Assembly: GCA_007693325.1 (NCBI GenBank)
Contig: REDW01000090.1
Span: forward strand, 1-32,503
Reading direction: 5' to 3'
DNA: 32,503 nucleotides
Source of the DNA: Spirochaetaceae bacterium
GTDB lineage: Bacteria; Spirochaetota; Spirochaetia; DSM-27196; PWMO01
The notes beneath the pieces were generated by a model. That model saw only the letters and a list, made by a program, of their open reading frames with translations, had not been told where the DNA came from and ran no database searches. A program made the translations under genes and the position numbers. This document shows, in pieces, positions 2,088-17,198 of the stretch. Positions within the stretch are counted from its first letter, which is position 1. Each line of letters starts with the position of its first letter.

Positions 2088-3977
2088 TCATAACTCCCCA
2101 AACCCCATGTGCTGAATGTAGGCGGTCTGAAAGTCCGGCGAACTGGACAGCTCGATATAGCGCACGTTCTGTGCGATGTGGTTGCACTGCCGTGATACGG
2201 TGCGCGAGGTGATGCTCATGACTGTGCCGATACCGGCAGCATTGCCGAGAACCTCGATGCGGCCGCGCACCTGTTGCGGAATCAGGCCCACGGCCAGCGC
2301 GCTCTCAGGGTTCATGTAGCTGCCAAACCCGCCGGCCAGGTAGACCGTGGCTACGTCGCTTACCTGCACTTGTGCGTCCGCCAGCAGCGTATCGATGCCG
2401 GCAGCAATCGCGGCTTTGGCCAGCTGCAGTTCGCGGACGTCGTGCTCGGTCAGATAGATCGCCTCACCGTCGCGGGTCTGGTCTGCTTCTGCTACCAGGA
2501 ACGCCGGGCTTGATTCAAACTCGATGCAGCGTGTGCGGATGGCCGAGGGAACACTCTGCGGCAGTTCATCCTGTCGCAGCAGCCGCCCGGTTTCATCAAC
2601 CGCGCCGGTCTGCAGCAGTACCGCTACTATATCCAGCATTCCTGAACCGCAGATTCCGCTCGCCGGTGTGGAGTTGATGGTAGTCAGAGATACGTGGCCC
2701 GTGTTTTGTTCCGCGTTATCCGGGTTGTCTTCAGGATAGAAAGCGAAGCAGTTGATCGCGCCGTCAACACCGCCAACGCCAAAACGGATCTGGGCGCCTT
2801 CAAATGCCGGACCGGCCGCGGTTGAGCAGGCGGCCAGCCAGTCGCCGTTTCCCAGCACAATTTCGCCGTTGGTGCCGATATCGATCAGCAGACTGACTTC
2901 GGCGCGCTCTCGCATGCGCGACGCGACAATGGCTGCAACCACATCGGCACCCACGTACCCGGAGATTCCCGGTAGCGTCACCACCCTGGCGTACGGGTTA
3001 ATCCGTATGCCAAGATCTGCGGCTGCCAGTGACAGCGCTCGCGTAGCCACCGGGATGAACGGTGATACCCCGATTGCCGCGGGATCCAGGCCGCTGAAGA
3101 AGTGCAGCATGGTAGTGTTGCCGGCCACCGCAGCAAGGTAGATGTCGCTGAGCGCCACTGCGTTACGCTTGGCCAGGGAGGTCAGCATGGCGTTGACCTG
3201 GTCCACGATTGCCTGGTGGACCGGTGCTACACCGTGCTTCTGGGAATAGGTGATCCGCGTCACCACGTCGGCGCCAAACTCGGCCTGACGGTTGATCTCG
3301 GAGTAGACGTCTATCGCACGGGCGCTGAGCAGATCCACCAGGTAGGCTGCAACTGTGGTGGTGCCGATGTCCACCGCTACGCCCCACAGGGTAGCGGCTG
3401 TGACTCCGGGCTCGACCGCCAGCAGCCGCCCGTGATCTTCCTCTTCCTTGTCTATCAGCGCGGTTACTTCAAAGCCGTGGCGCCGGATATCCTGCGCCAG
3501 TGACTGCAGCGCCCGCACCGATAAGCTCTGCGTTGCACAACCGCTGGCGCTGAGAACCCGCTCCAGGTCCGGCCTCTGGTCTTCAATCGAGGGCGGCGCA
3601 AGGCTGAGGGCGCGCTTGGCAAGCAGGGGGTCGTTCTCAAGCGCTGCTGCAACCAGCGTAGCCTTGTTGCGGGTCTCGGCGTGCCAACGGGGTATTTCAA
3701 TAACCATTGCGTCTGCGGGAACCAGGCGGCAGGCAAAGCGCATCCCGGCGGCCAGGCGCGCCGCAGAGAGCAGCCGCTGTTCCATTTTGCAGGGCTCTGT
3801 GGGGTCTCCTTCTATCACCCGCACCAGGCACTTGCCGCAGGTGCCCGATCCGCCGCACGGTGCGGCAATGGTGAAGCGGCTGTGCTGCAGCACGCTCAGT
3901 ACGTCAGCGGCGCCGCCGGTGGCAACCTGGTGCTGCCGGCCGTCCTGGATGACGCCGATGGTCTGGTTCTGCTTCAT
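2088..3977 (-). CDS. RACo-type corrinoid activation protein (2Fe-2S ferredoxin plus ASKHA ATPase domain, DUF4445)
   Basis: This 629-residue protein matches reductive activators of corrinoid proteins. These use ATP to drive an electron from a 2Fe-2S cluster onto cob(II)alamin that was inactivated by adventitious oxidation, restoring the methyl-accepting cob(I)alamin state. The N-terminal ferredoxin domain holds C41, C47 and C50 (PCGGSGTCGKC) and C83 as cluster ligands. A linker follows, then the ASKHA-type domain with GVAVDIGTTTVAAYLVD near 200, LLIDIGTNGEIVLGNGD near 370, GICGSGMLD and a late LAGGFGSYMNP. Length is normal for the family. The start overlaps the DUF1638 gene by 4 bp, showing translational coupling. 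Its place in one operon with the only free-standing corrinoid protein in the window makes that protein its likely client. Confidence 0.92.
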   Translation of the reverse strand: MKQNQTIGVIQDGRQHQVATGGAADVLSVLQHSRFTIAAPCGGSGTCGKCLVRVIEGDPTEPCKMEQRLLSAARLAAGMRFACRLVPADAMVIEIPRWHAETRNKATLVAAALENDPLLAKRALSLAPPSIEDQRPDLERVLSASGCATQSLSVRALQSLAQDIRRHGFEVTALIDKEEEDHGRLLAVEPGVTAATLWGVAVDIGTTTVAAYLVDLLSARAIDVYSEINRQAEFGADVVTRITYSQKHGVAPVHQAIVDQVNAMLTSLAKRNAVALSDIYLAAVAGNTTMLHFFSGLDPAAIGVSPFIPVATRALSLAAADLGIRINPYARVVTLPGISGYVGADVVAAIVASRMRERAEVSLLIDIGTNGEIVLGNGDWLAACSTAAGPAFEGAQIRFGVGGVDGAINCFAFYPEDNPDNAEQNTGHVSLTTINSTPASGICGSGMLDIVAVLLQTGAVDETGRLLRQDELPQSVPSAIRTRCIEFESSPAFLVAEADQTRDGEAIYLTEHDVRELQLAKAAIAAGIDTLLADAQVQVSDVATVYLAGGFGSYMNPESALAVGLIPQQVRGRIEVLGNAAGIGTVMSITSRTVSRQCNHIAQNVRYIELSSSPDFQTAYIQHMGFGEL

Positions 3978-4717
3978 GATTCGGTTATGACTCCCTCGTC
4001 AAACGATGGGGCGATGGTCTTGCCCGGCTCGATTATCAGAAAACGCTCGTCCCAGTTGCCCTCGACAAAGTCGCGCAGCAGCTCGGAGCTGCCCTGCTGC
4101 TCATCAAAAGCCCACTTCAGGTATTTTGAGGCGCCTCTGGTCTCCTGCTTCTGCGGGTCAGCGGGCAGTTCGGGCCATTCGATGAAGGTGCAGCGGTTAT
4201 ACTTGGCCAGCCAGTCCTGTTCCATTTTCATCAGATACTCGGCATTGTCTTCACCGTACTGCTCGCTGTAGTGCTGATAGGTCTTCTCGTAGCGGTCGCG
4301 GCCCGGCATCAGAACATTCTCCATCCAGCCGCGTGTATACCAGTAGGTTCCCGGGTGGCTGTCAAAGTACTCCTTGTAGCGCTTGCGGCTGCCGAGAAAC
4401 AGCGAGATGCAGTCGTGCGCCCGCGGTACTACCAGGCGATACTTGCTTGACCTGATTCCCACAATTGCATTACTGCACAGGGCGTAGCCGAGCAGTATCG
4501 CATCGTACTCGCGGGACATGGCGTGCGGGCTGTGGCCCGGCGGTGCCTGTTCGGTCTCGATCTGGTTGATGGTCTCCTGCAGCGCGCTGCGCAGCCCGTC
4601 GGGTTGATCGTGAAAACGCTGGTCGAGAAACATCGTGTCAACGATGTTCTCTGAGCGCGAAGCCAGCAGACTTAACTCGCGAAACAGTACTTTGCAGGCG
4701 ATAATCTTCAATCGCAT
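3974..4717 (-). CDS. DUF1638 domain protein
   Basis: This 247-residue protein has the hallmarks of DUF1638: an opening MRLKIIACKVLFRELSLL, the central ILLGYALCSNAIVGI, and VVPRAHDCISLFLGSRKRY followed by a GTYWYTRGW segment. The family has no settled biochemical function as far as I know. It recurs beside corrinoid methyltransferase genes, so a role in cofactor handling or in partnership with RACo is likely. Conserved Cys, His and Asp residues in the central motifs could bind a metal or cofactor. The gene sits between the PocR-type regulator (3 bp gap) and RACo (4 bp overlap) and has a GAGGGG ribosome binding site. No signal peptide or membrane segment is seen, so it should be cytosolic. Confidence 0.85.
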   Translation of the reverse strand: MRLKIIACKVLFRELSLLASRSENIVDTMFLDQRFHDQPDGLRSALQETINQIETEQAPPGHSPHAMSREYDAILLGYALCSNAIVGIRSSKYRLVVPRAHDCISLFLGSRKRYKEYFDSHPGTYWYTRGWMENVLMPGRDRYEKTYQHYSEQYGEDNAEYLMKMEQDWLAKYNRCTFIEWPELPADPQKQETRGASKYLKWAFDEQQGSSELLRDFVEGNWDERFLIIEPGKTIAPSFDEGVITES

Positions 4718-4720
4718 TGT

Positions 4721-6031
4721 CTACCCCTCGGATGGTACAGTATGCTTAGGTTGCCCACCGGATTCACGGAAGCGTCCCGGACTGACCCCGGAGTGCTTCT
4801 TGAACACCTTGGTGAAGTAGCTCTGGTCCTCAAAGCCGACCAGGCCGGCTACATCGATAATCGGTATGCGAGAATTGACCAGCAGCGACTTGGCCTTGGT
4901 GATCCGATAGCGGTTCAGGAACTCGGTGAAGGTGGTCTTCATCTCTTCTTTGAACAGGCGGCTGAAATAGGTTGGGCTCAGCGCTACGTGTGCGGCGATC
5001 TCGTCCAGCGGGATGCGTTCCATGTGGTGCTTCTTGATGTAGGCGATGCTGCGCTGAATGACATCGACGTGTTTGACGTCCTTGAGAATGAACACGCAAT
5101 CGGTGAAGCGGCGCATGATCCGCGACAGCCCGTAGGCAATGTCGTCGGCGTCGGTCATGGTGTAGAGCTGTTGCAGGTAGCGGAAGTTGAGGCCAAAGAT
5201 CTGCTCGTTATCCGCGCCGCCCTGCAGCGCGGCGCGCGAGAGCAACACTGCGAGCTCGAGTACGCGCGCCTTGATTACATCCAGATCACGGCCGGAGGTG
5301 AAGAATACGTACCCCAGTATTTCGTTGAGGATCTTCTGTGCTTCGGTCTGGTTGCCGCTGCGGATACACTCGAGCAGCAGCGACTCTTTCTCCACCGGGT
5401 AGCTCAGGCTGTCTTCGCCTTCGCTGTCGAGCTGCTTGATGTAGTGGATGTACTCCGAAATGCGCGAGTCTACCGCCAGCTTATCGTATTCGGCCTTGAA
5501 GGCTGCCTGGCCGCTTTCGGAGAGGAACGTACTGAGCGTGTAGAGAATTTCGGAGAGGCTCTTGACGCGTGCTGGATCCACGTAGGGCACGTTGCTGAAA
5601 CGGCTCTTGAGTTCAACCGGGTCGGGCAGGACGTCGGGAAAGAGCCGGAAAAACTCCTGTTCAAAAAAATCGATCTCATCGACCCCCAGAACCGGCCCGC
5701 CGAGCAACGCTCCAACGGTTGTTCCCCTGATTACAATCGGTGAGGTCCAGTGGATCAGCGAGATAGGGCAGAAGAAGATGTAACGGCCGCCGAAGCGCTC
5801 AGCGTGATAGATGCTGTACAGGTGAGTATCGCGACAGCCGCGCGGCTTCTCGGCCAGTAGCTGAAGCTTGCAGCAGCCAACGCACGGGTCGGGACCTACT
5901 CCGGCGCGGTAGAGCGAGTTGCCGTTGCGGTCGAGGATCGAGCAGCCCACGCCGGTGGCTCTACTGTAGTCCTCGACTGACATCACCGCCTTGTCGAAAT
6001 CAAACGTTGTCACAGCGGTTGTGGTTGCCAT
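4721..6031 (-). CDS. PocR-domain sensory AraC-family transcriptional regulator
   Basis: This 436-residue regulator has an N-terminal PocR ligand-binding domain (about 10-180) and a C-terminal AraC-type double helix-turn-helix (about 335-430). The PocR part shows the typical Cys cluster PCVGCCKLQLLAEKPRGC, then HAERFGGRYIFFCPISLIHW and GPVLGVDEIDFFEQE. In the DNA-binding part, IPLDEIAAHVALSPTYFSRL and a second helix pair ending in VGFEDQSYFTKVFKKHSG are clear. PocR domains, named after the propanediol/B12 regulator, sense small organic ligands. The gene lies inside the corrinoid operon, so it probably activates that operon and the divergent methyltransferase. The ATG at 6031 lacks a clear ribosome binding site, and an internal Met at residue 17 is an alternative start. 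Confidence 0.9.
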   Translation of the reverse strand: MATTTAVTTFDFDKAVMSVEDYSRATGVGCSILDRNGNSLYRAGVGPDPCVGCCKLQLLAEKPRGCRDTHLYSIYHAERFGGRYIFFCPISLIHWTSPIVIRGTTVGALLGGPVLGVDEIDFFEQEFFRLFPDVLPDPVELKSRFSNVPYVDPARVKSLSEILYTLSTFLSESGQAAFKAEYDKLAVDSRISEYIHYIKQLDSEGEDSLSYPVEKESLLLECIRSGNQTEAQKILNEILGYVFFTSGRDLDVIKARVLELAVLLSRAALQGGADNEQIFGLNFRYLQQLYTMTDADDIAYGLSRIMRRFTDCVFILKDVKHVDVIQRSIAYIKKHHMERIPLDEIAAHVALSPTYFSRLFKEEMKTTFTEFLNRYRITKAKSLLVNSRIPIIDVAGLVGFEDQSYFTKVFKKHSGVSPGRFRESGGQPKHTVPSEG

Positions 6032-6120
6032 ATATGACTGAGTCTATCGTAAAACAGACGTTCTGTATCGAGGAGAGTAGTACACCTCTGCGATACCAGG
6101 CACGGTGGAGAACAGGGAGG

Positions 6121-6147
6121 CACCGCGGGGGGCACCTCCCGGCGGTG
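6121..6147 (-). terminator. GC-rich hairpin directly after the corrinoid protein gene
   Basis: CACCGC at 6121-6126 pairs with GCGGTG at 6142-6147, with further G/C pairing inside. It begins immediately beyond the corrinoid gene stop on the minus strand. No T-run follows. It may be a partial terminator or an mRNA-stabilising hairpin that keeps corrinoid protein output above that of the downstream regulator and activator genes. Confidence 0.5.
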
Positions 6148-6792
6148 TCAGCTCGCTTTGGACTTGCAGTATTCTACTGCAACTTCGGCCGCGCTGGAGG
6201 CGTCCGGCGCGTAAAGATCAGCACCTACGGTCTTGCAGAAGCTGTCGGTTACCGGAGCTCCTCCGACCATAATGCGGAAGCGGTCACGCACACCGTCTTC
6301 TACAATCTTGTCTACGATATTGCGCATCTCGGTCATGGTGGTTGTCAGCAGTGCGGAGCACGCGATAATGTCTGCGTTGTGCTCGATAGCTGCGCTGACA
6401 AACTTCTCTGCCGGCACGTCCACGCCGATGTCGATGACCTCGAGCCCTTTGCCTTCCATCATCATCCGCACCAGGTTCTTACCGATGTCGTGAAGGTCGC
6501 CCTTGACTGTACCAAGGACCACGGTGCCTTGAGACTTGACGCCGGCGGTTACCAGGTGCGGCTTGAGCACGGTAATGCCGGCGTTCATTGCACGGGCGGC
6601 AATCAGGACTTCGGGGACGTAGCACTGGTTGTTCTTGAACTTCTCGCCAATGATGCCCATGCCGTCCATCAGCCCTTCTTCCAGAACGGCACGCGGCTCG
6701 AGACCTTCGTCAAGCGCCTTCTGCACCAGCTCCTTGACTTCGTTTGCTTTGCCGCGCTGCAGGTTCTCGGATAGTTCACTCAGTAGACTCAT
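6148..6792 (-). CDS. Corrinoid (B12-binding) methyl-carrier protein, MtbC/MtaC-like
   Basis: This 214-residue corrinoid protein should shuttle a methyl group between a substrate methyltransferase and an acceptor methyltransferase. The N-terminal helical cap (about 1-85) includes the family's VLEEGLMDGMGIIGEKF and YVPEVLIAARAMNAG segments. The Rossmann B12 domain carries the lower-ligand motif GDLHDIGKN, with D99, H101 and G104, where the His replaces the cobalamin base. DIGVDVPAEKFV, DIIACSALLTTTM and the C-terminal VGGAPV follow. I chose the ATG at 6792 because GAGGAGG lies just upstream and the family normally begins here; an in-frame upstream extension is spurious. It is the first gene of the minus-strand operon, followed by a hairpin, as expected for the most abundant component. 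It is the only free corrinoid carrier in the window, so all UroD-family paralogs may share it. Confidence 0.94.
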   Translation of the reverse strand: MSLLSELSENLQRGKANEVKELVQKALDEGLEPRAVLEEGLMDGMGIIGEKFKNNQCYVPEVLIAARAMNAGITVLKPHLVTAGVKSQGTVVLGTVKGDLHDIGKNLVRMMMEGKGLEVIDIGVDVPAEKFVSAAIEHNADIIACSALLTTTMTEMRNIVDKIVEDGVRDRFRIMVGGAPVTDSFCKTVGADLYAPDASSAAEVAVEYCKSKAS

Positions 6793-6953
6793 TGTTTCCT
6801 CCTCGGAGTCATTGTAACCACTCATGAAATCAGCTAAAGTATAGCCTAATCCCATCGTTTTGTATAAGACATTTTTGCGCTGAATTGTAGTCTTTTGCCT
6901 GGTTTTCGGCACAAACAAACCTACGTGGAAGCTGTGTTACAGGAGGCGTGTAA
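6793..6953. promoter_or_regulatory. Divergent control region between the corrinoid protein gene and the MtaA-like gene
   Basis: This 161-bp A/T-richer stretch separates divergent genes. On the minus strand TATACT (plus-strand AGTATA, 6838-6843) is a good -10 without a good -35, as expected of an activator-dependent promoter. TTTTGC occurs at 6873-6878 and 6893-6898, exactly 20 bp apart, and TTGTA at 6860-6864 and 6885-6889. Direct repeats about two helical turns apart are typical of AraC-family sites, so the PocR-AraC protein may bind here. A strong AGGAGG precedes the ATG at 6954. Confidence 0.5.
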
Positions 6954-7979
6954 ATGACCGGTAGAGAGAGAATAAGCAGGGCTTTACGCGGTGAGGCTGC
7001 CGATTCGCTGCCGCTGATTCCGATCTCAATGATGATAGCCGCCGACGAGATCGGGGTGCCCTACAAGCAGTACGTGCTCGACGCCGCTGCGCACGCCAAC
7101 GGCCAGATTGCCTTTGCGGCGCGCTATGATATCGATCACGTGTCGGCCATATCGTGTCCCACCAGTGAAGCCGCCGATCTCGGCGCGCGCATTTCCTACT
7201 ACGACAATCAACCGCCGGCAGTTGACGAGAGTAACGCACTGCTGCGGGACAAGACGCAGCTGCGCTCGCTGAAGGTGCCCGACCCGGGCAGCGGTGAACG
7301 GATGTCAAAGCGGCTCGAGGTCATCTCGCGCTTGAAGTCCCAGGTGGGTTCCGAGAAGATGGTGGAGGGCTGGGTTGAAGGGCCGATTGCCGAGAGCTGC
7401 GACCTGCGCGGGATCAACACCTTTATGATGGATTTCTACGATGATGAGGTGTTTGTACGCGAGCTGTTTGATTTTGTCTTTGAGGTCGCGATGGCCTTTG
7501 CGCGTCAACAGATCAAGGCCGGTGCCGATGTCATCGGAGTTGGTGATGCCGCCGCCTCGCTTGCAGGGCCGGAGCTGTACCGGCAGTTCATCTGGGAGTA
7601 CGAGAAAAAGTATGTGCGCACGCTGCATGAGATGGGGGCACTGGTGCGATTGCACATCTGCGGCAATACCACGCCGCTGCTGGCCATGCTCGGCGAAGTT
7701 GGGGCGGACATTCTCGACCTGGACTCGATGGTGCCGCTGGACGCGGCCCGCCGCGAAACCCGGGCCGGACAGCTGCTCTCGGGTAACATCGACCCGGTGC
7801 GTGCGCTGCGCGACGGCACACCCGAATCGGTCCACGCCGCCTTCCAGGCCTGCTTCGATCAGGCCGGTGGTAGCTACTACGCGGTCAACGCCGGCTGCGA
7901 GGTGCCGCGCGACACACCGCCGCAGAACATCGAGGCGATGCGCCGTTTTGCGCGGGAAACTCGTGCAAGCAACAGTTGA
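6954..7979 (+). CDS. UroD-fold corrinoid methyltransferase, MtaA/MtbA-like (probable methylcorrinoid to acceptor step)
   Basis: This 341-residue protein belongs to the uroporphyrinogen decarboxylase-fold MtaA/CmuA methyltransferase family. It shows MTGRERISRALRGEAAD at the start and the zinc-site motif LHICGN with H234 and C236. The third ligand is C315 in NAGCEVPRDTPPQN. This H-x-C...C pattern is that of archaeal MtaA/MtbA, in which zinc activates the thiol of coenzyme M. A bacterial version more likely passes the methyl group from the corrinoid protein to tetrahydrofolate or another thiol or folate acceptor. Of the five family members in the window it alone keeps the final Cys. It is divergent from the corrinoid protein gene and shares its control region, which fits the central, common transfer step. 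AGGAGG sits just before the ATG. True UroD is unlikely given the zinc motif and context. Confidence 0.9.
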   Translation: MTGRERISRALRGEAADSLPLIPISMMIAADEIGVPYKQYVLDAAAHANGQIAFAARYDIDHVSAISCPTSEAADLGARISYYDNQPPAVDESNALLRDKTQLRSLKVPDPGSGERMSKRLEVISRLKSQVGSEKMVEGWVEGPIAESCDLRGINTFMMDFYDDEVFVRELFDFVFEVAMAFARQQIKAGADVIGVGDAAASLAGPELYRQFIWEYEKKYVRTLHEMGALVRLHICGNTTPLLAMLGEVGADILDLDSMVPLDAARRETRAGQLLSGNIDPVRALRDGTPESVHAAFQACFDQAGGSYYAVNAGCEVPRDTPPQNIEAMRRFARETRASNS

Positions 7980-8024
7980 CAGCGCGTCAAACCCGGTTTA
8001 GGCTGTCACTCATACATACCGGAT

Positions 8025-8232
8025 CATCAGGGAGGTGCATAGACCACGAAACTACAGCCGGAAAGGAAAAACGGAAACCTGTGTGAATCAGGTGCGGGCG
8101 TGCCGCTGTATGCGGATTTGAGGTCCCTCACTGCCACTGTCCCTCCGGGATGGGAAGGCGAGATGCTGAATATCCGTGAGCCAGAAGACGATTCCTTTCT
8201 TTAGACGAAGCAAACAATACCGTGCTTCGTTC
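8025..8232 (+). ncRNA. Cobalamin (B12) riboswitch
   Basis: Conserved cobalamin-aptamer blocks occur in order: GGAGGTGCAT at 8031-8040, GGAAACCTGTGTGAATCAGG at 8073-8092, the core box GCCACTGT at 8133-8140, GGGAAGGCG at 8152-8160 and GAGCCAGAAGAC at 8178-8189. A downstream arm pairs ACGAAGC (8205-8211) with GCTTCGT (8224-8230). It lies before the BtuB-like receptor, the usual target. Bound adenosylcobalamin or methylcobalamin is expected to lower receptor expression. Exact ends are estimated. Confidence 0.92.
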
Positions 8233-8301
8233 TCTCACGTACAGGGGATGCGTAATGTAGCCGTGGCGTACCCACCGCTGGTGTACCGATCCGCTCTTAC
8301 C

Positions 8302-8357
8302 ATTCCTTCTGTGTAACAACACGCCCGTCGCTCCAGGCGCCGGGTCAAAGAAGGAGT
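8302..8357 (+). promoter_or_regulatory. Ribosome-binding-site masking hairpin, expression platform of the B12 riboswitch
   Basis: TCCTTCT at 8304-8310 is an exact complement of AGAAGGA at 8349-8355, which contains the ribosome binding site of the receptor gene. A T-G and an A-T pair extend the stem outward. Inside, CCCG (8324-8327) can pair with CGGG (8341-8344). No T-run follows, so control at translation initiation is more likely than termination. Confidence 0.65.
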
Positions 8358-8365
8358 ACTGTTTC

Positions 8366-10408
8366 ATGAACTTTCGAATTCTTGCATCGCTGCTGGCAAC
8401 CGCACTGCTTCTGGTGCCGGGCTCTGCAGTGGCTGATTCAGGCGAGGGCGATACGCCACAGGCTGGGCCGGTTATCGACGTTGTAATCACCGCCGACCGC
8501 GTACTGACCGACATCGTGTCCACCGCGGCCCACGTCTCGATCATCACTGCCGACGACATCCGCCAATCCGGCGCCACCAACGTGGTCGAACTCCTCGACC
8601 GCCAGCCAGGGGTGTCGTTCCGGTCGTTCTCCAACGAGGCGCAGGCCCAGGTTGACATGCGCGGCTTCGGGGAAGGCTCATACGGCCGGGTGCTGGTACT
8701 GGTGGACGGCCGGCGCCAGAACAACCCCGACATGTCGGGCATCAACTGGCTCTCCATCCCGATCGATTCAATCGAGCGGATCGAGGTGGTACGCGGCAGC
8801 GAGAGCGCGCTCTACGGCAACAACGCGGTGGCGGGCGTGATCAACATTATCACCAAGACGCCCGAGCGGCCGCTGGAGTTATCCGCAGCAGGCAGCTTTG
8901 GCAGTTTCATGGCCAACCAGCAGCGCCTCGGGCTGGCAACCGCCGGTGAGCGCGCCCGGCTGCGCGCCTCGGCCGAGCACTTCTCCACCGACGGCCACCG
9001 CGACCGCAGCGCCTACCGCGCGCTCAACTTCTCACTCGCCGGCGAGTTCGACCCCACCGACCGATTGAGCCTCTCCCTCGGAGGCCGCTACGCCAACGTA
9101 TTCTACGAGCTGCCCGGCGGGTTGACCAAGGAAGAGTTCGAGGATGATCCGAGCCAGGCGAAGAGGGATGCCCCATGGCCTGACACTGGACGTATAGACA
9201 ACGACGAAGACGAAGCGACCGAAAATCAGTTTGGGGTGGACGCGGGTGTGCTGTGGCAGCTGGGTGATCGGATGAACGCAGAGCTTGCTCTGGCGTTTTC
9301 GCATAAGGAAGTCGAGACCGATTTCACTAGCGAGTTCAATTTTTCCGATACCAATCTGAACACCGTGGCCGCAGCACCGGCGATTGTGATTGATTGGGAC
9401 TTGTCGATCATTCCGGTGCGAACTCGCTTTGGGGTTGATTGGGACTGGGCTAGACAGGACGGTAAGATCTATGATTCCGCTGACCGTGATAATAAGACCG
9501 ATGAGTTTGCGCTTTCTCAATGGACCATCTCTACGGCCCTCGCGAACACATTATATCTCACCGAGCAAATGGATGTCGGTGCTGCTTTACGTTACGACCG
9601 TAGTGTCATAGCGGCGACCAAAGAAGCCGAAGATATCGACGAATCAAAAACTCACCAAGCGGTTGTGTTTGATATTTCGACAGTGTTTCGTCCGGTAGAA
9701 TCGGCAAAGATATACGTTTCCGGCGGTACATTGTTCCGTTATCCCGCGTTGGACGAGCAAGGCCAGGTGAGAGGATTTGCCGATGGCTTCAACGAAAAAC
9801 TGGATCCCGAAACCGGTTTCAATGTGGAATTAGGTGGTGGACTCTACCTCCTTCCCGCCATCCGTGCAGACGTCAGCGTGTACCTGCTGCAGATGCGCGA
9901 CGAGATTGCATATGACGATGTCGAAAATCGCAATATCAATTTTGATCAGACTCGCCGCATCGGTGCTGACCTGCAGATCAGCACCGAGCCGATCGAGCCA
10001 CTGCGTCTGGCGGCTGGCTACAGCTATGTGAACGCGGTCTTCATCAAGGGAGACGACAGGGATAACCAGGTTCCACTGGTGCCAAATCACAGCATTGACG
10101 CGGAACTGGGCGTACGCCCGCTTCGCGGTCTCGAGTTTGGACCGGCGGTTACCTACCGCAGCCAGGCCTACCAGGGCGGCGACACCGGTAATGAACAGGA
10201 CAAGATCGACGCCTATTTCGTGACCGATCTCTTTGTGCGCTTTCGCCCGGCCGGCCTGCCGGGTGACCTGTCGCTGAGCGCTGAGGTGAAGAATCTCTTC
10301 GATTTGAATTATGCTCCGTTGGTTGCCTACAGCGAGTGGGCAGGAAGCAGCGCCTACTATCCCGCGCCCGGGCGTAGTTTCCGGATTGCGGCGGCGTACA
10401 GCTACTAG
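8366..10408 (+). CDS. btuB: TonB-dependent outer-membrane receptor, BtuB-like cobalamin transporter
   Basis: This 680-residue receptor should import cobalamin or related corrinoids across the outer membrane. A signal peptide (about 1-24, ending SAVAD) is followed by a TonB box DVVITADR. A plug domain comes next with SIITADDIRQSGATNVVELL, VDMRGFGEGSYGRVLVLVDG and the closing ERIEVVRGSESALYGNNAVAGVINI. The 22-strand barrel ends in an aromatic residue (AAAYSY), as outer-membrane barrels do. A cobalamin riboswitch upstream makes B12 the likely ligand, which fits a locus rich in corrinoid enzymes. TonB is encoded 14 bp downstream. The middle of the barrel (about 9,150-9,830) is visibly richer in A/T than both ends, suggesting mosaic ancestry or relaxed codon use in the extracellular loops. 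Periplasmic and inner-membrane B12 transport genes are not in the window. Confidence 0.92.
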   Translation: MNFRILASLLATALLLVPGSAVADSGEGDTPQAGPVIDVVITADRVLTDIVSTAAHVSIITADDIRQSGATNVVELLDRQPGVSFRSFSNEAQAQVDMRGFGEGSYGRVLVLVDGRRQNNPDMSGINWLSIPIDSIERIEVVRGSESALYGNNAVAGVINIITKTPERPLELSAAGSFGSFMANQQRLGLATAGERARLRASAEHFSTDGHRDRSAYRALNFSLAGEFDPTDRLSLSLGGRYANVFYELPGGLTKEEFEDDPSQAKRDAPWPDTGRIDNDEDEATENQFGVDAGVLWQLGDRMNAELALAFSHKEVETDFTSEFNFSDTNLNTVAAAPAIVIDWDLSIIPVRTRFGVDWDWARQDGKIYDSADRDNKTDEFALSQWTISTALANTLYLTEQMDVGAALRYDRSVIAATKEAEDIDESKTHQAVVFDISTVFRPVESAKIYVSGGTLFRYPALDEQGQVRGFADGFNEKLDPETGFNVELGGGLYLLPAIRADVSVYLLQMRDEIAYDDVENRNINFDQTRRIGADLQISTEPIEPLRLAAGYSYVNAVFIKGDDRDNQVPLVPNHSIDAELGVRPLRGLEFGPAVTYRSQAYQGGDTGNEQDKIDAYFVTDLFVRFRPAGLPGDLSLSAEVKNLFDLNYAPLVAYSEWAGSSAYYPAPGRSFRIAAAYSY

Positions 10409-10422
10409 GGGAAGGGTTGCAG

Positions 10423-11196
10423 ATGGTAGCGGCGAGACGGCGAGATACAGTTGACCGCAGGCGCATGCGACAGGCGGTGGTAACCGCTCTGCTGCTGCAC
10501 CTGTGCCTGTTTCTCGTTATCGAGTTTGTGCCATCCGCGGATGAGGCCGGGCAGGGCGGTGACGATCGGCTGACGGTTGTCATGGAGCCGCCCGGCGCCG
10601 CTCGCCAGTCCGCCGCCGGTTCCGCCGTGTCGGGGACCAGGGACGGAAATGCCGATACAGAGCAGATCTCAGCGGAGCGTGAGGTTTCTGCCGCAAAGGA
10701 CAACGGCGAGCAGACGGTGGTTGAGCCGGCCGATAACAGCCTCGATAGCGAGGATACCGAGGCCGCAGAGGAGCCGGCCACTGCAGCAGACAGTGAAGAC
10801 CAGGTTGCGGAATCTGAGTCGGAGGGTGATGAGCGTGCACCGATTGGCGGTGCCGCGGCGCCGCGGGATTCTGCTGTAGCGGGTGACGGGCCGGCAGCCG
10901 GTCCGCTGACTAACGGTGCCGACGTTGATGCCTTGGTGGCGGATCTGTACCGGCGGCTGCAGGATCAACTGATCTATCCAATGGCGGCGCGCAGACGCAA
11001 CGTCGAAGGCGTTGTTACCGTCAGAATCCAGGTGGAATCGGACGGCAGCCTCGGCAGCCACGAGGTAGCGGGCTCATCGGGCCATTCGATGCTGGACCGC
11101 GCGGCACTGGATTCGCTTGAACGAGTTTTCCCGATCAGCCACCAGGCCGGTCGCCCTCTATTGATTACCGTCAGAATCGAATACTCGCTGACCTGA
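10423..11196 (+). CDS. TonB-family energy transducer
   Basis: This 257-residue protein is anchored by one N-terminal transmembrane helix (about 19-36, VVTALLLHLCLFLVIEFV). Unlike the usual Pro-rich TonB spacer, it then has a long acidic, low-complexity periplasmic spacer rich in Glu, Asp, Ala and Ser. The C-terminal TonB domain (about 175-257) is typical: DLYRRLQDQLIYPMAARR, EGVVTVRIQVESDGSLGSHE, then GHSMLDRAALDSLERVFP. It should couple the proton-motive force to the adjacent receptor. ATG at 10423 is preferred because GGGGAAGGG is well placed; a TTG 6 bp earlier is less likely. ExbB and ExbD are absent here and must be supplied elsewhere. It probably shares a transcript with the receptor and so falls under the B12 riboswitch. 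Confidence 0.88.
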   Translation: MVAARRRDTVDRRRMRQAVVTALLLHLCLFLVIEFVPSADEAGQGGDDRLTVVMEPPGAARQSAAGSAVSGTRDGNADTEQISAEREVSAAKDNGEQTVVEPADNSLDSEDTEAAEEPATAADSEDQVAESESEGDERAPIGGAAAPRDSAVAGDGPAAGPLTNGADVDALVADLYRRLQDQLIYPMAARRRNVEGVVTVRIQVESDGSLGSHEVAGSSGHSMLDRAALDSLERVFPISHQAGRPLLITVRIEYSLT

Positions 11197-11230
11197 GCCG
11201 GGCTCCAACAACCATTGCCTATGTATTCTC

Positions 11231-11265
11231 CTTGAAAAATGGAAGACTGTCTTCCATTTTTCAAG
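11231..11265. terminator. 35-bp near-perfect palindrome between convergent genes, probable bidirectional terminator
   Basis: Two 17-bp arms, CTTGAAAAATGGAAGAC and GTCTTCCATTTTTCAAG, flank a single T at 11248. As RNA it folds into a roughly 16-bp stem with a 3-nt loop. It lies 34 bp after the tonB stop and before the convergent methyltransferase gene. The A- and T-runs inside the arms give either strand a T-rich 3' side, although no extra T tail follows. Confidence 0.7.
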
Positions 11266-11288
11266 TATGAAACAGAAGAGAAGCTTGC

Positions 11289-11366
11289 CTGCCGGCCGCG
11301 CGCACGTGCCTGCCGGTCGCGCCCCCGTGCTGCCGGCCGCGCCCCCGTGCTGCCGGCCGCGCTCCC
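11289..11366. repeat. 20-bp GC-rich tandem repeat, about four copies
   Basis: The unit CTGCCGGCCGCGCCCCCGTG starts at 11289, 11310, 11330 and 11350, with one extra C between copies one and two. Copy 1 ends in a diverged GCGCACGTG, copy 2 has GGTCGC for GGCCGC, and copy 4 is cut to 17 bp ending in CTCCC. The repeat is intergenic, between convergent genes, and no reading frame across it looks real. Confidence 0.85.
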
Positions 11367-11388
11367 AAATCAAGCTGCACCGCAGTTG

Positions 11389-12441
11389 TCAATAGCGCCC
11401 GTATTCGTCTATGGCGTCGAACATCGCCAGGACGTTCTCGACCGGAGTCTCTTCCAGGATAGTATCGTGGCTGGCTCCGCCCACGTAGCCGCTGCCGGGC
11501 ATCATGATGTCCAGCAGCTTGCGGGTTTCCTCGCGGACAAACGCCGGATTGCCGTCAATCAGCACGTGGTGCGAGTCGATAGCGCCGTTGAGAACGATAT
11601 CTTTGCCGAAATCGCGCTTCAGTCCGGCCGGCTCCATTCCTCTGGCATCCGGTTGTAGTGCGTGCAGCGCGTCGAGTCCCGCGTCAATCAGTTGCGGTAT
11701 CAGTTCGCGGAATCCGCCGCAGCAGTGAAGCATAACCGTGAGGTCGTAGGCATGACCCAGGTCAATCAGGCGCCTTAGTTGGGGAACCAGGAAACGCCCA
11801 AAGAGCTCAGGGCTCAATACGGGGCCGGTCTGGCTGCCGAAGTCATTGCCGAAGAAAAAGATGTCAATCGCGTCGGCTGCCTGTTCAAAGATTGCTCGGC
11901 TCACCGCTTCGTAGTAATCTGTGACCCGGCTGAATAACGCCTCGGCTGCCGCAGCATGATCGTACATCAGGTAGTAGAGGTTTTCCTGGCCCACCAGGTC
12001 GATGGCATCGTGCCAGAACGGTGACCAGTCGCCGCCGAGAATGGCATACTGGTTGTTCCACGCTGCTGCATCCGTCCTGATGGTGGATACGTCCATCCGC
12101 GAAGCCGAAGGCCATGGGAAGGCTTCAACCTCGGCAACGGTTGTGGCATCCGCCAGCGGATGGGACATCGGCTGGCCGTAGCCCATGCCACGACGCTGTA
12201 TTCCAAACGGACTCTCCCAGGTAGCTCCATTCTGCAGAACGGGGTCGGGCCCACAGAACTGTGCATAGACACGGCGAAAGTCGTCGCCGAGCCGGCTGCG
12301 CAGCCCTTCATCGTCAAGCGAGAGGTCCCGTTTTGCCTTATCCCAGAACTCCGGCGATGCTCCGCACCAGCGCGGAACCCGGTCAGGGTCGTCGAAACGG
12401 AAGACTCTGGCGACACGCACTCTGGAGGATAAAGGTTCCAT
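11389..12441 (-). CDS. UroD/MtaA-family methyltransferase, H-x-C...H subtype (first of four)
   Basis: This protein of about 350 residues has the UroD fold. It shows VARVFRFDDPDRVPRW near the start, the acidic patch FFFGNDFGSQTGPVLSPELF in mid-protein, and the metal motif MLHCCGG with H239 and C241. The equivalent of the third zinc ligand is H325 in GGASHDTILEETPVENV. The family moves methyl groups between substrates and corrinoid proteins, and this paralog may be a substrate-specific demethylase subunit. It is divergent from the sensor-fused AraC regulator, so it is likely controlled by it. The start is uncertain: the Met at 12441 begins at the family's usual position, but an in-frame Met at 12504 exists, and neither has a convincing ribosome binding site. 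Confidence 0.85.
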   Translation of the reverse strand: MEPLSSRVRVARVFRFDDPDRVPRWCGASPEFWDKAKRDLSLDDEGLRSRLGDDFRRVYAQFCGPDPVLQNGATWESPFGIQRRGMGYGQPMSHPLADATTVAEVEAFPWPSASRMDVSTIRTDAAAWNNQYAILGGDWSPFWHDAIDLVGQENLYYLMYDHAAAAEALFSRVTDYYEAVSRAIFEQAADAIDIFFFGNDFGSQTGPVLSPELFGRFLVPQLRRLIDLGHAYDLTVMLHCCGGFRELIPQLIDAGLDALHALQPDARGMEPAGLKRDFGKDIVLNGAIDSHHVLIDGNPAFVREETRKLLDIMMPGSGYVGGASHDTILEETPVENVLAMFDAIDEYGRY

Positions 12442-12550
12442 TTGACAAGCATAGTGTTGAGCTGTTGCGGCCGCAACGTGAAAAACTCGGGTCAGTGACA
12501 GCATTAACTGAGGATTTTCGCAGCACGAATTTTCAGCTAAGATAGTAGCG
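12442..12550. promoter_or_regulatory. Divergent control region of the UroD-family gene and the AraC regulator
   Basis: No gene lies here if the shorter methyltransferase start is right. On the plus strand TAAGAT at 12538-12543 is a possible -10 lying only 7 bp before the ATG at 12551, and there is no ribosome binding site. A leaderless regulator transcript is therefore possible. The likely -35 (TTTTCG, 12515-12520) is poor. Confidence 0.35.
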
Positions 12551-14260
12551 ATGTACGAACCCGATGGCTTTCTGGGATATCCACGAAAATCAATTCCCGA
12601 ACGGCCGGCAGATCCGTTGTTGTTTCCTGAAGACGATGCGCGTCATTGGTACGACCTCGAGTATGCCGGATGGAAGGTTGGAAAGCATAATGTACTGGAA
12701 TCGCCCGGCGATGGTCCGCAGGGCAAACGGATAACTCTGCTTGTGCCGGGGGATCATCCCTATTTTCGCACCTATAGTGAGGTTTTTCGTAAAGAGGCGG
12801 AGGCGGTCGGGATGGACATATCGGTCCAGTGGGCGGACTGGGACCCGGTGATGCAGACGATACAGGTCAACAAGACGCTGAAGACTCGCCCTGATCTCAT
12901 CGTGCTGGTTCCCTGTGATATCAGTGCGAGTGCTGATTGGTACCGCAAGATAAACCGTTCCGGTATTCCGGTAATCGCCAGCAATCTGATGCCGGAGGTA
13001 GACTGTTTCCGGTATCTGCTGTCCTGGACAGGTCCAGATGACTGGGAGCAAGCCCGACAGCTTGCCCGGATCTTTGCCGAGAAGATGGATTACGAAGGCA
13101 GCTACGGGATAATCCAGCACACTCCAGGCACGTCGGTCTACTACGCGCGCACCTACGGTGTTATTACCGAGCTGGCGCAGATTGCACCCAGGATGCAGTG
13201 CATTGAGCGAGAGTTTACGTCGTTTGACCCTGAATTGACCGAGAAGACCGTGGTCCAATGGGTGGAAAAGCATGGATTGCGTTTGAAAGGAATAGTCAGC
13301 GCGGACGACAATCTGCCTCAAATGGGGATAAACCGGGCTCTGCTGCGACGGCAGCGCGAGGATGTTGTCCGCGCCGCCGCGGGGGGCAGCGCTGTTGGGC
13401 TCAATCTGCTGTGGAGAGGCAAGCTGGATGTACTCAGTTATCAGTCGCCGGTACTGGACGGAAGCCTGCCGGTCCAGGCAGCTACAGACTGGTTCAACGG
13501 CCTGGCGATTGATCCGGTTTACTATCTTCCGGTGCGGATTCTGACGGCCGATACGGTTGAAGAGTTCCTTTCGTATTGGGAGCGCGTGCGCAGTATTGAA
13601 GTTGAAACGCTGCGCGACTCCATAATTACGGCCAGGCGGGCGGATGTTCAGCAGTTCTTCCGCGATCTGCTGGTTGCCCTGACAGAAACCGAAACAGTCT
13701 CGTCCGACTTTGCTCGAGGGTTGTTCATCGAGCTGCTTTCTGAGACGCACAGCATTATCAAGATGTACGACCTCAATGAGCAGGAACTGATCGGAAACTA
13801 CTCCGACTATTTCAAGAAGCTGTTTCGGCAGCGCTCGATCAAGAAGACCATTGACTGGCTTGAAGGTGTAGCGCTGGCGGTTACCGACCGGTTGCTCTCG
13901 GACAGGGGCGGAACCAGATCACTCGGAGAGCGCGCTGTTGAATACGTTCAGGCCAACTACGCCCAGCCGCTGTCACTCAAGACAATATCGTTCAAATTTG
14001 GTGTTTCCGCGGCATACCTGGGCAACATCTTCAAGCAGCAGACCGGTCAGGCCTTTTCCGACTATCTCAACACGTATCGGATCGAGCGCGCCAAGTACCT
14101 CTTGACGCATTCCAGCATCAGCGCCAAAGAAGCAGCCAGGCTGGTCGGATACAATGATTCAAACTACTTCTATCGCGTATTCAAGAAATACCTGGGTTTC
14201 TATCCTTCGCACCTGCAGGGCAGCTCGCGCAAAGGCTACGACGCTGTCACCGGCGAGTGA
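12551..14260 (+). CDS. AraC-family regulator with an N-terminal sugar-binding-protein-like sensor domain
   Basis: This 569-residue protein joins a type I periplasmic-binding-protein fold (about 30-360) to an AraC double helix-turn-helix (about 455-560), through a helical linker. The sensor half is clearly homologous to the binding protein encoded at 20,918-22,102. Shared segments in the same order include HWYD(L/M)EY.GW, GKR, GDHPY, WTGPDDW, (Y/F)YARTYG with ITELA, and ATDWFNGL against AVDWFNGL. It has no signal peptide, so it is cytosolic. The DNA-binding half shows LSLKTISFKFGVSAAYLGNI and AARLVGYNDSNYFYRVFKKY. The simplest reading is a one-component regulator that recognises inside the cell the ligand imported by the adjacent transporter. 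It lies upstream of the mutarotase/methyltransferase/transporter operon and divergent from another methyltransferase gene, its likely targets. Confidence 0.9.
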   Translation: MYEPDGFLGYPRKSIPERPADPLLFPEDDARHWYDLEYAGWKVGKHNVLESPGDGPQGKRITLLVPGDHPYFRTYSEVFRKEAEAVGMDISVQWADWDPVMQTIQVNKTLKTRPDLIVLVPCDISASADWYRKINRSGIPVIASNLMPEVDCFRYLLSWTGPDDWEQARQLARIFAEKMDYEGSYGIIQHTPGTSVYYARTYGVITELAQIAPRMQCIEREFTSFDPELTEKTVVQWVEKHGLRLKGIVSADDNLPQMGINRALLRRQREDVVRAAAGGSAVGLNLLWRGKLDVLSYQSPVLDGSLPVQAATDWFNGLAIDPVYYLPVRILTADTVEEFLSYWERVRSIEVETLRDSIITARRADVQQFFRDLLVALTETETVSSDFARGLFIELLSETHSIIKMYDLNEQELIGNYSDYFKKLFRQRSIKKTIDWLEGVALAVTDRLLSDRGGTRSLGERAVEYVQANYAQPLSLKTISFKFGVSAAYLGNIFKQQTGQAFSDYLNTYRIERAKYLLTHSSISAKEAARLVGYNDSNYFYRVFKKYLGFYPSHLQGSSRKGYDAVTGE

Positions 14261-14360
14261 GTGACCATTCTCGAAGTTTGAACACTCTATTGTGCTAGTT
14301 TTTTCTGTTGTGGACTTCCTTGTCCGGGCTTTACACTGAATCAGAGTCAGGAGTGAAGCG
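14261..14360 (+). promoter_or_regulatory. Candidate promoter of the mutarotase-transporter operon
   Basis: TTGTGG at 14308-14313 and TACACT at 14332-14337 are 18 bp apart and form a moderate sigma-70-like promoter. AGGAG follows shortly before the ATG at 14361. The A/T-rich stretch 14285-14305 upstream could hold activator sites. No obvious terminator separates it from the regulator gene. Confidence 0.4.
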
Positions 14361-14684
14361 ATGGTACGACACGGACAGGTAATCAGGTTACGTGAAGGAA
14401 TGCTGGACGAATACCGGCGTCAGCACGCGGCGGTGTGGCCCGAAGTAGCGGCCAGGATTCGCGACTGCAATATCCGCAACTACTCGATCTTTCACAAGGA
14501 CGGACTGCTTTTTGCCTACTTCGAATACCACGGTAACGATTTTGCTGCCGATGGCGCCAGGATGGCGGCAGATCCCAAGACCCAGCAGTGGTGGGCGCTG
14601 ATGAAACCGATGCAGGAACCGCTTCCCACGCGTGAGGAAGGCGAGTGGTGGGCTGAGATGGAAGAAGTCTTCTACCAGGAGTAA
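14361..14684 (+). CDS. L-rhamnose mutarotase-like protein (RhaM/RhaU family)
   Basis: This 107-residue protein has the full length and signature of the L-rhamnose mutarotase (DUF718) family, small ferredoxin-like-fold dimers that interconvert alpha and beta anomers. Visible are YRRQHAAVWPEVAARI with the catalytic-type His, CNIRNYSIFHKDGLLFAYFEY, and the closing KTQQWWALMKPMQEPLP with the WW pair of the family. It leads the operon and precedes a UroD-family gene by only 4 bp. The pairing of such a mutarotase with a two-permease ABC transporter recalls the rhizobial rhamnose system RhaSTPQU. No rhamnose isomerase, kinase or aldolase is present here, however, so the sugar may be a modified relative of rhamnose rather than rhamnose itself. 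Confidence 0.9.
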   Translation: MVRHGQVIRLREGMLDEYRRQHAAVWPEVAARIRDCNIRNYSIFHKDGLLFAYFEYHGNDFAADGARMAADPKTQQWWALMKPMQEPLPTREEGEWWAEMEEVFYQE

Positions 14685-14688
14685 TAAC

Positions 14689-15924
14689 GTGCCAGATCCA
14701 CAACTGCAATCCGAGATCCAGCAGATGAGAGCATCAGTCCAGAAGAGCGCCCAGCCTGCCCGGAGCGAGAACTGCCTGGCAAAACGGGAACGGATGCGCA
14801 AGACTCTGCGGCGCGAAGAGGCTGATCGCATTCCTATCAGCGACTTCTTCTGGGGCAGCTTTCTGGAGCGCTGGAAGGCCGATCTCAACCTGCCCGCTGA
14901 TACCGATGTCTACACCTACTACGACCTGGATTGGATTGTCACTATCCCCAACATGGATCCGCGTATCAGGCCATTTGAATTCATCAAGAATAGTGAGCAG
15001 GAAGTCATCGTGAAGACCGGCTACGGGGCGGTTATCCGCAAGGATCTGAATATCCCGATGCCGTACTTCGAGAGTTTTGAAACGGACACGATAGAAAAGG
15101 CTGAAGCACTGGAGTTCGATGACCCCCATGACGACCGCCGCTTCTTTGCTTCCGGAGATAACCAGCTTGCCGGCGTTGGTGATGGGTTTGCGACCAATCT
15201 GCCGCCGTGGGTGCAGACCGTCAAATCATTGTACCCCGATTTCCCGGTCTACGGCAGCGTTTGCGAGGCCCAGGAACAGGGCTGGAGAATAATTGGGTCG
15301 GAAAACATGATGATGTGGATGGGGCTCTATCCTGAGCGCCTGGGGCGCTTCATTCGGCGGGTTGGCGAGTTTGGAGTGGAACTGGCCAAGGCGCAGATCG
15401 AGGCTGCTAACGGAATGCTGGACGGCATGGTTATCTGGGGTGACGTAGCGTACCGCAACGGAATGCTGTTCTCGCCGGACTACTGGCGTGAGTACTTCAA
15501 GCCGTGCGTCAAAGGAATCGTTGATGTCTGCAAAGCCAACGGTATCCCGGTTATTTACCACGGCTGCGGCAATGCCACGGTCATCTACGATGATCTCATA
15601 GAAGCCGGGATTGACGGATACAATCCGGTAGAGGCCAAGGCCGGCCTGGATGTGGTGGATTTGAAGCAGGAGTTTGGCGACCGCCTCAGTTTCTGCGGCA
15701 ACATGGACGTGATGAAGTGGGCCGATCTTCCCATGGACGAACTGAAAGCCTACGTGGTCAGAAAGCTGAATGCCGGCAAAGGCGGCGGGTTTATCTTCCA
15801 GTCCGATCACTCAGTGCCTTCGAGTGTTTCCGGAGAGCGCTACGATTACGTTGTGAAACTCGTGCGAGAATACGGCAACTATCCGCTGCAACTCGGTGAA
15901 TACGACGTGCCGGAACTGGGTTGA
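14689..15924 (+). CDS. UroD/MtaA-family methyltransferase, H-x-C...H subtype (second of four)
   Basis: This protein of about 411 residues starts at GTG 14689, chosen because AGGAG (14677-14681) is 7 bp upstream and the mutarotase stop is 4 bp away. Met 14725 is an alternative. Family features are RMRKTLRREEADRIPISDFF, a central VIWGDVAYRNGMLFSPDYW, and the metal motif YHGCGN with H291 and C293. H374 follows in FQSDHSVPSS, where MtaA has its last Cys. DVVDLKQEFGDRLSFCGNMD is the conserved late barrel strand. It is likely a substrate-side corrinoid methyltransferase, that is, an O-demethylase component. Its N-terminal third is longer than in the other paralogs and may shape substrate choice. 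Confidence 0.87.
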   Translation: MPDPQLQSEIQQMRASVQKSAQPARSENCLAKRERMRKTLRREEADRIPISDFFWGSFLERWKADLNLPADTDVYTYYDLDWIVTIPNMDPRIRPFEFIKNSEQEVIVKTGYGAVIRKDLNIPMPYFESFETDTIEKAEALEFDDPHDDRRFFASGDNQLAGVGDGFATNLPPWVQTVKSLYPDFPVYGSVCEAQEQGWRIIGSENMMMWMGLYPERLGRFIRRVGEFGVELAKAQIEAANGMLDGMVIWGDVAYRNGMLFSPDYWREYFKPCVKGIVDVCKANGIPVIYHGCGNATVIYDDLIEAGIDGYNPVEAKAGLDVVDLKQEFGDRLSFCGNMDVMKWADLPMDELKAYVVRKLNAGKGGGFIFQSDHSVPSSVSGERYDYVVKLVREYGNYPLQLGEYDVPELG

Positions 15925-15938
15925 CAGGGGTAACACAG

Positions 15939-17198
15939 ATGACATCCAGAGAGCGAGTACTCGCAGCAATTGCGCACCAGGAGCCGGATCGAGTTCCGGT
16001 AGACCTCGGCTCCACACCGAGTTCAGGAATATCCGCGATAGCCTATACCCGTCTCATGCGTCACATGGGGATTCAGAACTCAAAGACCCGGGTCTATGAT
16101 GTGGTGCAGGAACTTGCGCAACCCGAGGACCATGTGCTGGACGCCTTTGACGTAGATGTGATTGACATCGGGCGCGCGTTCAATATCGAGGATGATGCCT
16201 GGTATGCGGTAGAGCTTTCGGATGGAAGCAGAGCGTACTACCCGGGCTGGTTTCGGCCGCAGCGCGAGTCTGACGGCGCGCTGAGCGCGACAGTCAACGG
16301 CACCGTCATTGCTCGTAAACCGGTGGGCGCCACATTTTTCGATGCCACGCATTTTCCCTATCTGGAAGGTTACCCCGAAAGCTATGCGCAGCTGCAGCGG
16401 GCGATGGGGATGGTCCATTGGGCGGCGCTGGTCCACTCCCCGTGGGATCATGCAGCCGATCCGGATTTCTGGCAGACGCTGCGCCGCAAAGCGCTGCAGC
16501 TCCGCGAGACTACCGACAAGGCCCTCATGATTGTGGTGGGCTGCAATCTCTTTGAATGGGGTACGTTTCTGCGACGGCTGGACAACTTCCTGATGGACGT
16601 CTACGCCGACGAGCAGAACGTGCAGCGCCTGCTCGACGCCCTGGTTGAGATTCACCTGGCAAACCTGCAGAAGGTGTGTGAAGCGGTGGGCGACGTGGTG
16701 GATATCATCCGCTTTGGTGATGATCTGGGCATGGACTCCGGTCCGTTCATGTCACCGGAGCGCTACCGGACGCTTTTCAAGCCGCATCACCAGCGAATGT
16801 GCCAGTACGTCCAGCAGCACAGCACAATGCACACCTTTCTGCACTCGTGCGGTTCAATCTACCAGCTGATTCCCGATCTGATCGATGTCGGATTTGAGAT
16901 TCTCAATCCGGTGCAGACCAACACCGTTGATATGGATGCCGAGCGGCTCAAACGAGAGTTTGGCTCGGACGTCACCTTCTGGGGCGGCGGGGCAGACACC
17001 AGGCACACGCTCAATAACGGCTCGCCTGCAGCCGTCAGGAACGATGTGAAACAGAGAATCGATGCGCTTGCTCCCGGCGGAGGGTTTGTTTTCAATACTA
17101 TCCACAATATCCTGCCCGATGTTCCTCCCGAGAATGTAGTGGCGATGTTTGAGACGTTGAAGGACTATGGCACTGTGAACGGCAGGACGGCACTATGA
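15939..17198 (+). CDS. UroD/MtaA-family methyltransferase, H-x-C...H subtype (third of four)
   Basis: This 419-residue protein starts at ATG 15939 with AGGGG upstream; an in-frame TTG at 15921 overlapping the previous stop is less likely. It opens with TSRERVLAAIAHQEPDRVPV, typical of the family. It carries IIRFGDDLGMDSGPFMSPE in mid-barrel, the metal motif FLHSCGS with H302 and C304, and H389 in NTIHNILPDVPPENVVAM at the position of the MtaA zinc Cys. It resembles the minus-strand paralog at 11,389-12,441 in these motifs (FGNDFGSQTGPVLSPE, HDTILEETPVENVLAM). The last base pairs overlap the ABC ATPase start by 4 bp, so methyl transfer and import are translationally coupled. The likely role is demethylation of the imported compound through the corrinoid protein. 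Confidence 0.88.
   Translation: MTSRERVLAAIAHQEPDRVPVDLGSTPSSGISAIAYTRLMRHMGIQNSKTRVYDVVQELAQPEDHVLDAFDVDVIDIGRAFNIEDDAWYAVELSDGSRAYYPGWFRPQRESDGALSATVNGTVIARKPVGATFFDATHFPYLEGYPESYAQLQRAMGMVHWAALVHSPWDHAADPDFWQTLRRKALQLRETTDKALMIVVGCNLFEWGTFLRRLDNFLMDVYADEQNVQRLLDALVEIHLANLQKVCEAVGDVVDIIRFGDDLGMDSGPFMSPERYRTLFKPHHQRMCQYVQQHSTMHTFLHSCGSIYQLIPDLIDVGFEILNPVQTNTVDMDAERLKREFGSDVTFWGGGADTRHTLNNGSPAAVRNDVKQRIDALAPGGGFVFNTIHNILPDVPPENVVAMFETLKDYGTVNGRTAL

Follow-up and report, generated by a model that had tools for sequence, protein, structure and literature searches.

The closest described systems are B12-responsive leaders in which one RNA strand is shared between alternative helices. In the metE switch of Mycobacterium tuberculosis (PMC11260477), a strand called anti-TIR hides the start region when ligand is present. 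An anti-anti-TIR strand captures anti-TIR when ligand is lacking; once ligand is there, the anti-anti-TIR strand folds into a hairpin instead, with a loop able to pair with L5. For the metE corrinoid riboswitch of Priestia megaterium, the published report (PMC10653944) describes a 3' side of P13 that alternates between P13, formed with ligand and an L5-L13 kissing loop, and another helix, whose partner is the 5' side of a downstream hairpin. Without the kissing loop, P13 is the weaker of the two. For btuB of Escherichia coli, published accounts (PMC11162775, PMC5359240) place P13 in the pseudoknot and a separate P14 hairpin over the SD, the ON state being a helix between the anti-SD and anti-anti-SD strands.

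The window analysed here, a stretch of 32,503 nucleotides from a Spirochaetaceae bacterium, carries a leader in front of a BtuB-like receptor gene for which sequence comparison and folding models suggest a related arrangement. Specifically, we propose, with a probability of about 0.78, that a cobalamin riboswitch represses translation of the B12 receptor via a two-hairpin relay. This is the relay logic described for M. tuberculosis metE (PMC11260477), although the gene is another, the phylum apparently another too, and the likeness concerns the described logic and not the sequence. The mycobacterial switch, which has a short ORF in its aptamer, has furthermore been tested in the laboratory, and the one here is predicted from sequence. 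With P. megaterium metE (PMC10653944), the window would share the double use of the P13 3' side and a weak P13, but the output there is a transcription terminator and here an RBS hairpin. Translational control of a B12 outer-membrane receptor would be common to the window and E. coli btuB (PMC11162775, PMC5359240), as would a P13 in a pseudoknot, a second hairpin covering the SD and an ON state in which another helix keeps the SD free; the E. coli anti-anti-SD strand is not equated with the P13 3' arm. As such, the relay logic is already published, and by analogy the element in the window appears to be a fresh, well-formed example and not a new type of system. It would nonetheless show, in clear and testable form, how B12 could control its own uptake among spirochaete-like bacteria, in which such switches seem little studied, no dedicated study having been found in a literature search.

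Architecture of the leader

RF00174 matches are present in all six genomes of the genus and in 33 of 46 genomes of the order. The same platform motifs as in the window occur in G000, G002 and G005 of the same genus (g1) and in G025, G026 and G027 of another family (g10), together the six relay leaders. Leaders of the same aptamer subtype in G030, G032 and G033 (g11) are built differently: P13 itself holds the RBS, AGAGGAG, and the start codon follows. The elements of the window, all on the + strand, are as follows.

7976-8004, +: weak sigma-70-like promoter candidate, TTGACA - 17 nt - TAGGCT, an arrangement common to G002 and G005
8061-8068, +: 5' strand GAAAGGAA of the aptamer-closing helix, partner TTCCTTTC at 8192-8199, read from the sequence
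8073-8189, +: aptamer core of the cobalamin riboswitch, RF00174 at 67.6 bits
8096-8102, +: L5 loop GGGCGTG, putative kissing partner of L13, placed by the RF00174 alignment, with 6 or 7 of 7 pairs in nine leaders
8205-8230, +: 8-pair hairpin between aptamer and P13, stacked right before P13 in the predicted fold
8231-8247, +: P13 hairpin with L13 loop CACGTAC at 8236-8242, five standard pairs in 9/9 leaders
8243-8255, +: antisequestor 5' strand AGGGGATG-C-GTAA, of which 8243-8247 is common to P13; 12 pairs with 8297-8308
8297-8308, +: 3' strand TTACCATTCCTT of the antisequestor, which shares bases with the sequestor strand
8302-8310, +: sequestor (anti-RBS) strand ATTCCTTCT, identical in 6/6 leaders
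8311-8345, +: two small hairpins in the sequestor loop, 8311-8314:8319-8322 and 8323-8332:8336-8345, from the predicted fold
8349-8357, +: RBS strand AGAAGGAGT of the receptor gene, start codon at 8366
8366-10408, +: TonB-dependent receptor, BtuB-like, with Pfam barrel and plug
10423-11196, +: tonB-like gene, Pfam TonB_C on the ORF from 10417, start picked by eye

The cobalamin aptamer that the initial annotation had recognized by eye is confirmed by the covariance-model search it proposed, the score lying well above the gathering score of 31.5 bits. The match covers model positions 47-167, leaving the peripheral 5' part of the model unmatched, and is the sole RF00174 match across the 3.47 Mb assembly. 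The g11 leaders have GAGGAA and TTCCTC in the places of GAAAGGAA and TTCCTTTC. Reading TTCCTTTC as a second anti-RBS strand was rejected, its partner being the strand at 8061-8068, with which it closes the aptamer. In the g10 and g11 leaders, the position of the hairpin at 8205-8230 is occupied by other sequence. The promoter candidate overlaps the stop codon of the upstream gene and was missed by a consensus scan because its second hexamer has only 3/6 matches.

The anti-RBS stem in which that annotation saw a translational switch, TCCTTCT (8304-8310) as exact complement of AGAAGGA (8349-8355), stands at exactly these positions and grows to nine pairs (A8302-T8310 with A8349-T8357). The inner CCCG/CGGG stem (8324-8327 with 8341-8344) is likewise recovered, within a longer hairpin at 8323-8345. 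The idea of a translational switch is supported too, but not by this stem alone, which would merely close the RBS and therefore cannot explain switching by itself. Overlooked were the L13 hairpin and the antisequestor, which likely let B12 decide whether the stem forms.

As in other cobalamin riboswitches, a hairpin with an L5-complementary loop lies downstream of the aptamer. This L13 loop has seven nucleotides of the form CACGNNC in nine leaders; in the window it makes six of seven standard pairs with L5, and six is also the number throughout g1 and g10. P13 by itself is weak (-2.5 to -2.7 kcal/mol), so that the kissing loop would be needed to hold it. Its 3' arm continues as AGGGRATG-Y-GTAA in the six relay leaders, with TTACCATTCCTT as its partner. 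In the window, 8243-8255 (AGGGGATGCGTAA) thereby pairs with the strand at 8297-8308 that hides the RBS in the alternative state. Positions 8243-8247 can be used by P13 or by the antisequestor, as one strand with mutually exclusive pairings, and TTACCATTCCTT overlaps the sequestor; the antisequestor therefore rules out both P13 and a closed RBS. The nucleotides themselves show the aptamer and the three helices, the way in which these overlap one another, and their recurrence in relatives.

From this arrangement we infer ligand binding, the direction of the switch and kinetic control. Upon binding of B12, L5 (8096-8102) would kiss L13 (8236-8242) and stabilize the weak P13, which would keep the purine strand 8243-8247 occupied. 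With this strand tied up, the sequestor ATTCCTTCT (8302-8310) would be free to pair with AGAAGGAGT (8349-8357), turning translation off. Without B12, P13 would yield to the 12-pair antisequestor (8243-8255 with 8297-8308), which would form ahead of transcription of the RBS, leaving the RBS open and the gene on. Termination of transcription as the output was rejected, a consensus scan of 7800-12600 having found no terminator-like site on the + strand.

Support for the helices and competing readings

The sequestor stem keeps 9/9 standard pairs in all six relay leaders. Comparison of the stem in relatives, suggested at the outset as a check, shows it kept in 6/6 leaders but so nearly unchanged (one U-A to U-G) that it holds no informative covariation. 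Compared with shuffled sequences, the whole sequestor domain folds better in 6/6 relay-type leaders (z -3.3 to -4.6; 0 to 2 of 500 shuffles reach it). When 8249-8346 is shuffled with its dinucleotides preserved, 51 of 20000 sequences contain an exact TCCTTCT; a duplex as stable as the sequestor stem (-12.0 kcal/mol) arises in 83 of 2000 shuffles, which makes for a moderate signal from a single sequence. Within the inner hairpins, pair 8327:8341 shows a compensatory change from G-C to A-U in G005, and three further one-sided changes in the two hairpins preserve pairing. The shuffle control of the compensatory pair (174/500) is uninformative because it involves just three sequences. Pairs in the six leaders were counted by motif, because MAFFT did not align the sequestor strand correctly across the two families.

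The antisequestor is complete in 6/6 relay leaders, with 12/12 standard pairs and a single bulged base, and it appears in the predicted fold of a transcript that ends before the RBS in all six, across two families. Its spacer varies in length and sequence among the leaders and is poorly alignable or unalignable; in g10, the helix is lengthened by extra pairs of differing sequence (z about -4.6). For transcripts of the window ending at any of seven tested positions from 8308 to 8350, the fold of lowest energy contains the antisequestor, whereas at 8357 it loses to the sequestor by about 6 kcal/mol. At equilibrium, the full-length RNA favours the closed form by about 4 kcal/mol, and the open state would therefore depend on folding during transcription. 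Full-length folding gives the closed form as best in 3/3 g1 leaders and the open form in 3/3 g10 leaders.

Against shuffles, the antisequestor hairpin of the window is not clearly better (z -1.4, 40/500; z -1.15, 27/200), and the values across g1 (z -1.4 to -2.0) are unconvincing. For its 5' strand, RNAduplex gave a plainly negative result: the best duplex is other than the proposed helix, and 1742 of 2000 shuffles do at least as well. Because of this weak shuffle support in g1 and the negative duplex test, the case for the antisequestor rests on conservation. Specifically, the complementarity of GTAA with TTAC and of ATG with CAT exceeds what P13 or the RBS require, and the strands are kept between families. 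P13, sequestor and antisequestor are nearly invariant in the six closest leaders, with changes of the G-U/A-U type only, and covariation within them is nearly absent for this reason.

The same conservation bears on the simpler account of direct sequestration, in which only the stem 8302-8310:8349-8357 matters, promoted by the aptamer through some other route, and there is no antisequestor. Such an account would fit the sequestor domain being the strongest local structure (z -4.57) and the full-length minimum of the window, as well as the g11 leaders, in which P13 itself contains the RBS and the second hairpin is absent. However, the conservation and mutual complementarity, in two families, of ATGYGTAA behind P13 and TTACC ahead of the sequestor would then have no explanation, and the account provides no link from aptamer to stem, so we consider it unlikely.

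Less probable still is a pairing of L5 with CACGCCC (8320-8326) in the second hairpin, which would make that hairpin the actual L13 and turn the sequestor into a direct P13. CACGCCC and the L5 loop GGGCGTG are exact complements, and G005, with CACGCTC, retains the pairing. Yet an exact complement arises by chance in 129 of 5000 shuffles, the strand is required by the inner hairpins, with one compensatory pair, and a P13 with the conserved CACGNNC loop already lies at the expected place. Given its chance level and the absence of CACGCCC from the g10 leaders, this pairing was rejected. A leader peptide (ATG at 8248 to TAA at 8314-8316) that opens the sequestor while the riboswitch controls its start can be dismissed with similar confidence for want of a conserved frame: the frame does traverse the anti-RBS strand behind an SD-like AGGGG, and M. 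tuberculosis B12 switches with leader ORFs are known (PMC11260477), but spacing between AGGGG and ATG is zero, a 2-nt length difference in G005 runs the frame into the receptor, and in g10 it ends after a few codons.

Direct and probable relay wirings in related genomes

The two-hairpin relay has counterparts beyond the six leaders. A pattern built on the P13 of G004 gave 22 matches in 20 of 248 genomes of the class; the Rfam aptamer was present in 6 of 14 loci tested, and seven of the loci were folded. The relay is clear in G004, G015 and G046, where the predicted nascent fold joins the P13 3' arm to the sequestor strand. One pair of this P13-arm helix changes from G-C (G004) to A-U (G015 and G046); read by eye, the sequestor is TCCTTCT/AGAAGGA in G004 versus TTCTTCT/AGAAGAG in G015. 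Among the other folds, the relay is not clear in G094 and in one of two copies in G118, the other G118 copy has a partial relay, and G135 shows the same fold without an Rfam match. In G001, G003 and G017, which carry a consensus-type, third aptamer subtype, the partner of the P13 region GAGGAAGG is a pyrimidine strand adjacent to the sequestor. As judged from their predicted pairings, both trios are independent replicas of the wiring in other sequences. A class-wide pattern search found the element in at least 7 of 394 genomes and no genome beyond those already known; its gap range was too narrow and missed G000 and G005, which bear the element, and the count is therefore a lower bound. A search for related loci in named genomes yielded 80 mostly distant receptors, among which a scan for the platform motifs returned the g11 locus only.

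Leaders of the same receptor thus differ in their use of P13, which is itself the RBS hairpin in g11 and would be part of a relay in g1 and g10. It is tempting, though doubtful, to see here one order in which the same aptamer subtype and receptor have two wirings: the 3' arm of P13, the RBS proper in one clade, would in two others be an RBS-like strand acting indirectly, via a second hairpin, on a new RBS, the relay having turned a former RBS into an antisequestor. If true, an evolutionary path from a direct to an indirect riboswitch would be visible, and the orthologous direct and relay leaders offer a way to test a change of output with the sensor unchanged. The receptor tree gives no age order of the platforms, with unsupported forks and long branches that meet. 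Incomplete receptors in G003 and G028 entered this tree as part sequences, and those in G002, G011 and G032 were left out.

Further features of the related leaders can be noted. The g11 leaders have a second, consensus-type aptamer in tandem just upstream; before the receptors L011, L022 and L025 (G030, G032 and G033), the order is consensus-type and then the subtype of the window, about 100-150 nt apart. Tandem aptamers also precede L018 (G011), the second being cut by the contig end. The leaders of L053 and L044 (G027 and G025) are identical at 326 of 342 aligned bases, while their receptors share only 294 of 625 residues, with similar signal peptides; this suggests that the receptor was exchanged behind a retained leader. 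In L047 and L048 (G007 and G008), about 200 nt separate the riboswitch RBS hairpin from the receptor start. A short frame in this gap reads in phase with the receptor in G008, and in G007 it overlaps the receptor start by ATGA. The G007 overlap is reminiscent of the uPPE2-PPE2 AUGA overlap of M. tuberculosis (PMC11260477).

The receptor, tonB and the corrinoid genes

The receptor scores 138.5 bits against TIGR01779 (TonB-B12), which is under the model cut-off. The tonB-like gene starts 14 nt past its stop codon, with a purine-rich site of its own. Among the loci of relatives, 16 of 17 have a tonB-like frame beside the receptor (E <= 1e-3, several of them weak), and the one locus without it, L043, ends 146 nt after the receptor. 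The suggestion that B12 status also controls tonB by transcript coupling is plausible in view of the short gap and the shared neighbourhood: presumably co-transcribed, the co-directional tonB would follow the control of the receptor by sharing its message. Just after tonB, between convergent genes, lies a perfect 16-bp inverted repeat CTTGAAAAATGGAAGA with a 3-nt loop (11231-11265), which is terminator-like yet was not called by the consensus scan.

The heavy corrinoid demand attributed to this locus is supported by a two-domain B12-binding protein, a RACo-type corrinoid activator and five URO-D/MtaA-like methyltransferases in the window. Specifically, the region upstream of the riboswitch (2091-7976) encodes the RACo-type activator, a DUF1638 protein, a PocR-type regulator, the two-domain B12-binding protein and a URO-D methyltransferase. 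The idea of coupling gains support from the receptor-tonB pair and from the corrinoid-methyltransferase genes nearby. The methyltransferase block also adjoins the receptor in G005 (79-94% protein identity), whereas its genes were not found beside the receptor in the examined regions of G026, G027, G017 and G007, some of them on short contigs. By gene content, the link between B12 uptake and the block therefore holds for the genus branch of the window, to which the claim is limited. Further downstream (11392-23315), four more URO-D/MtaA-like genes stand amid a sugar ABC transporter, an L-rhamnose mutarotase and an AraC-type regulator, so that methyltransferase-like genes and sugar uptake are combined in an unusual way.
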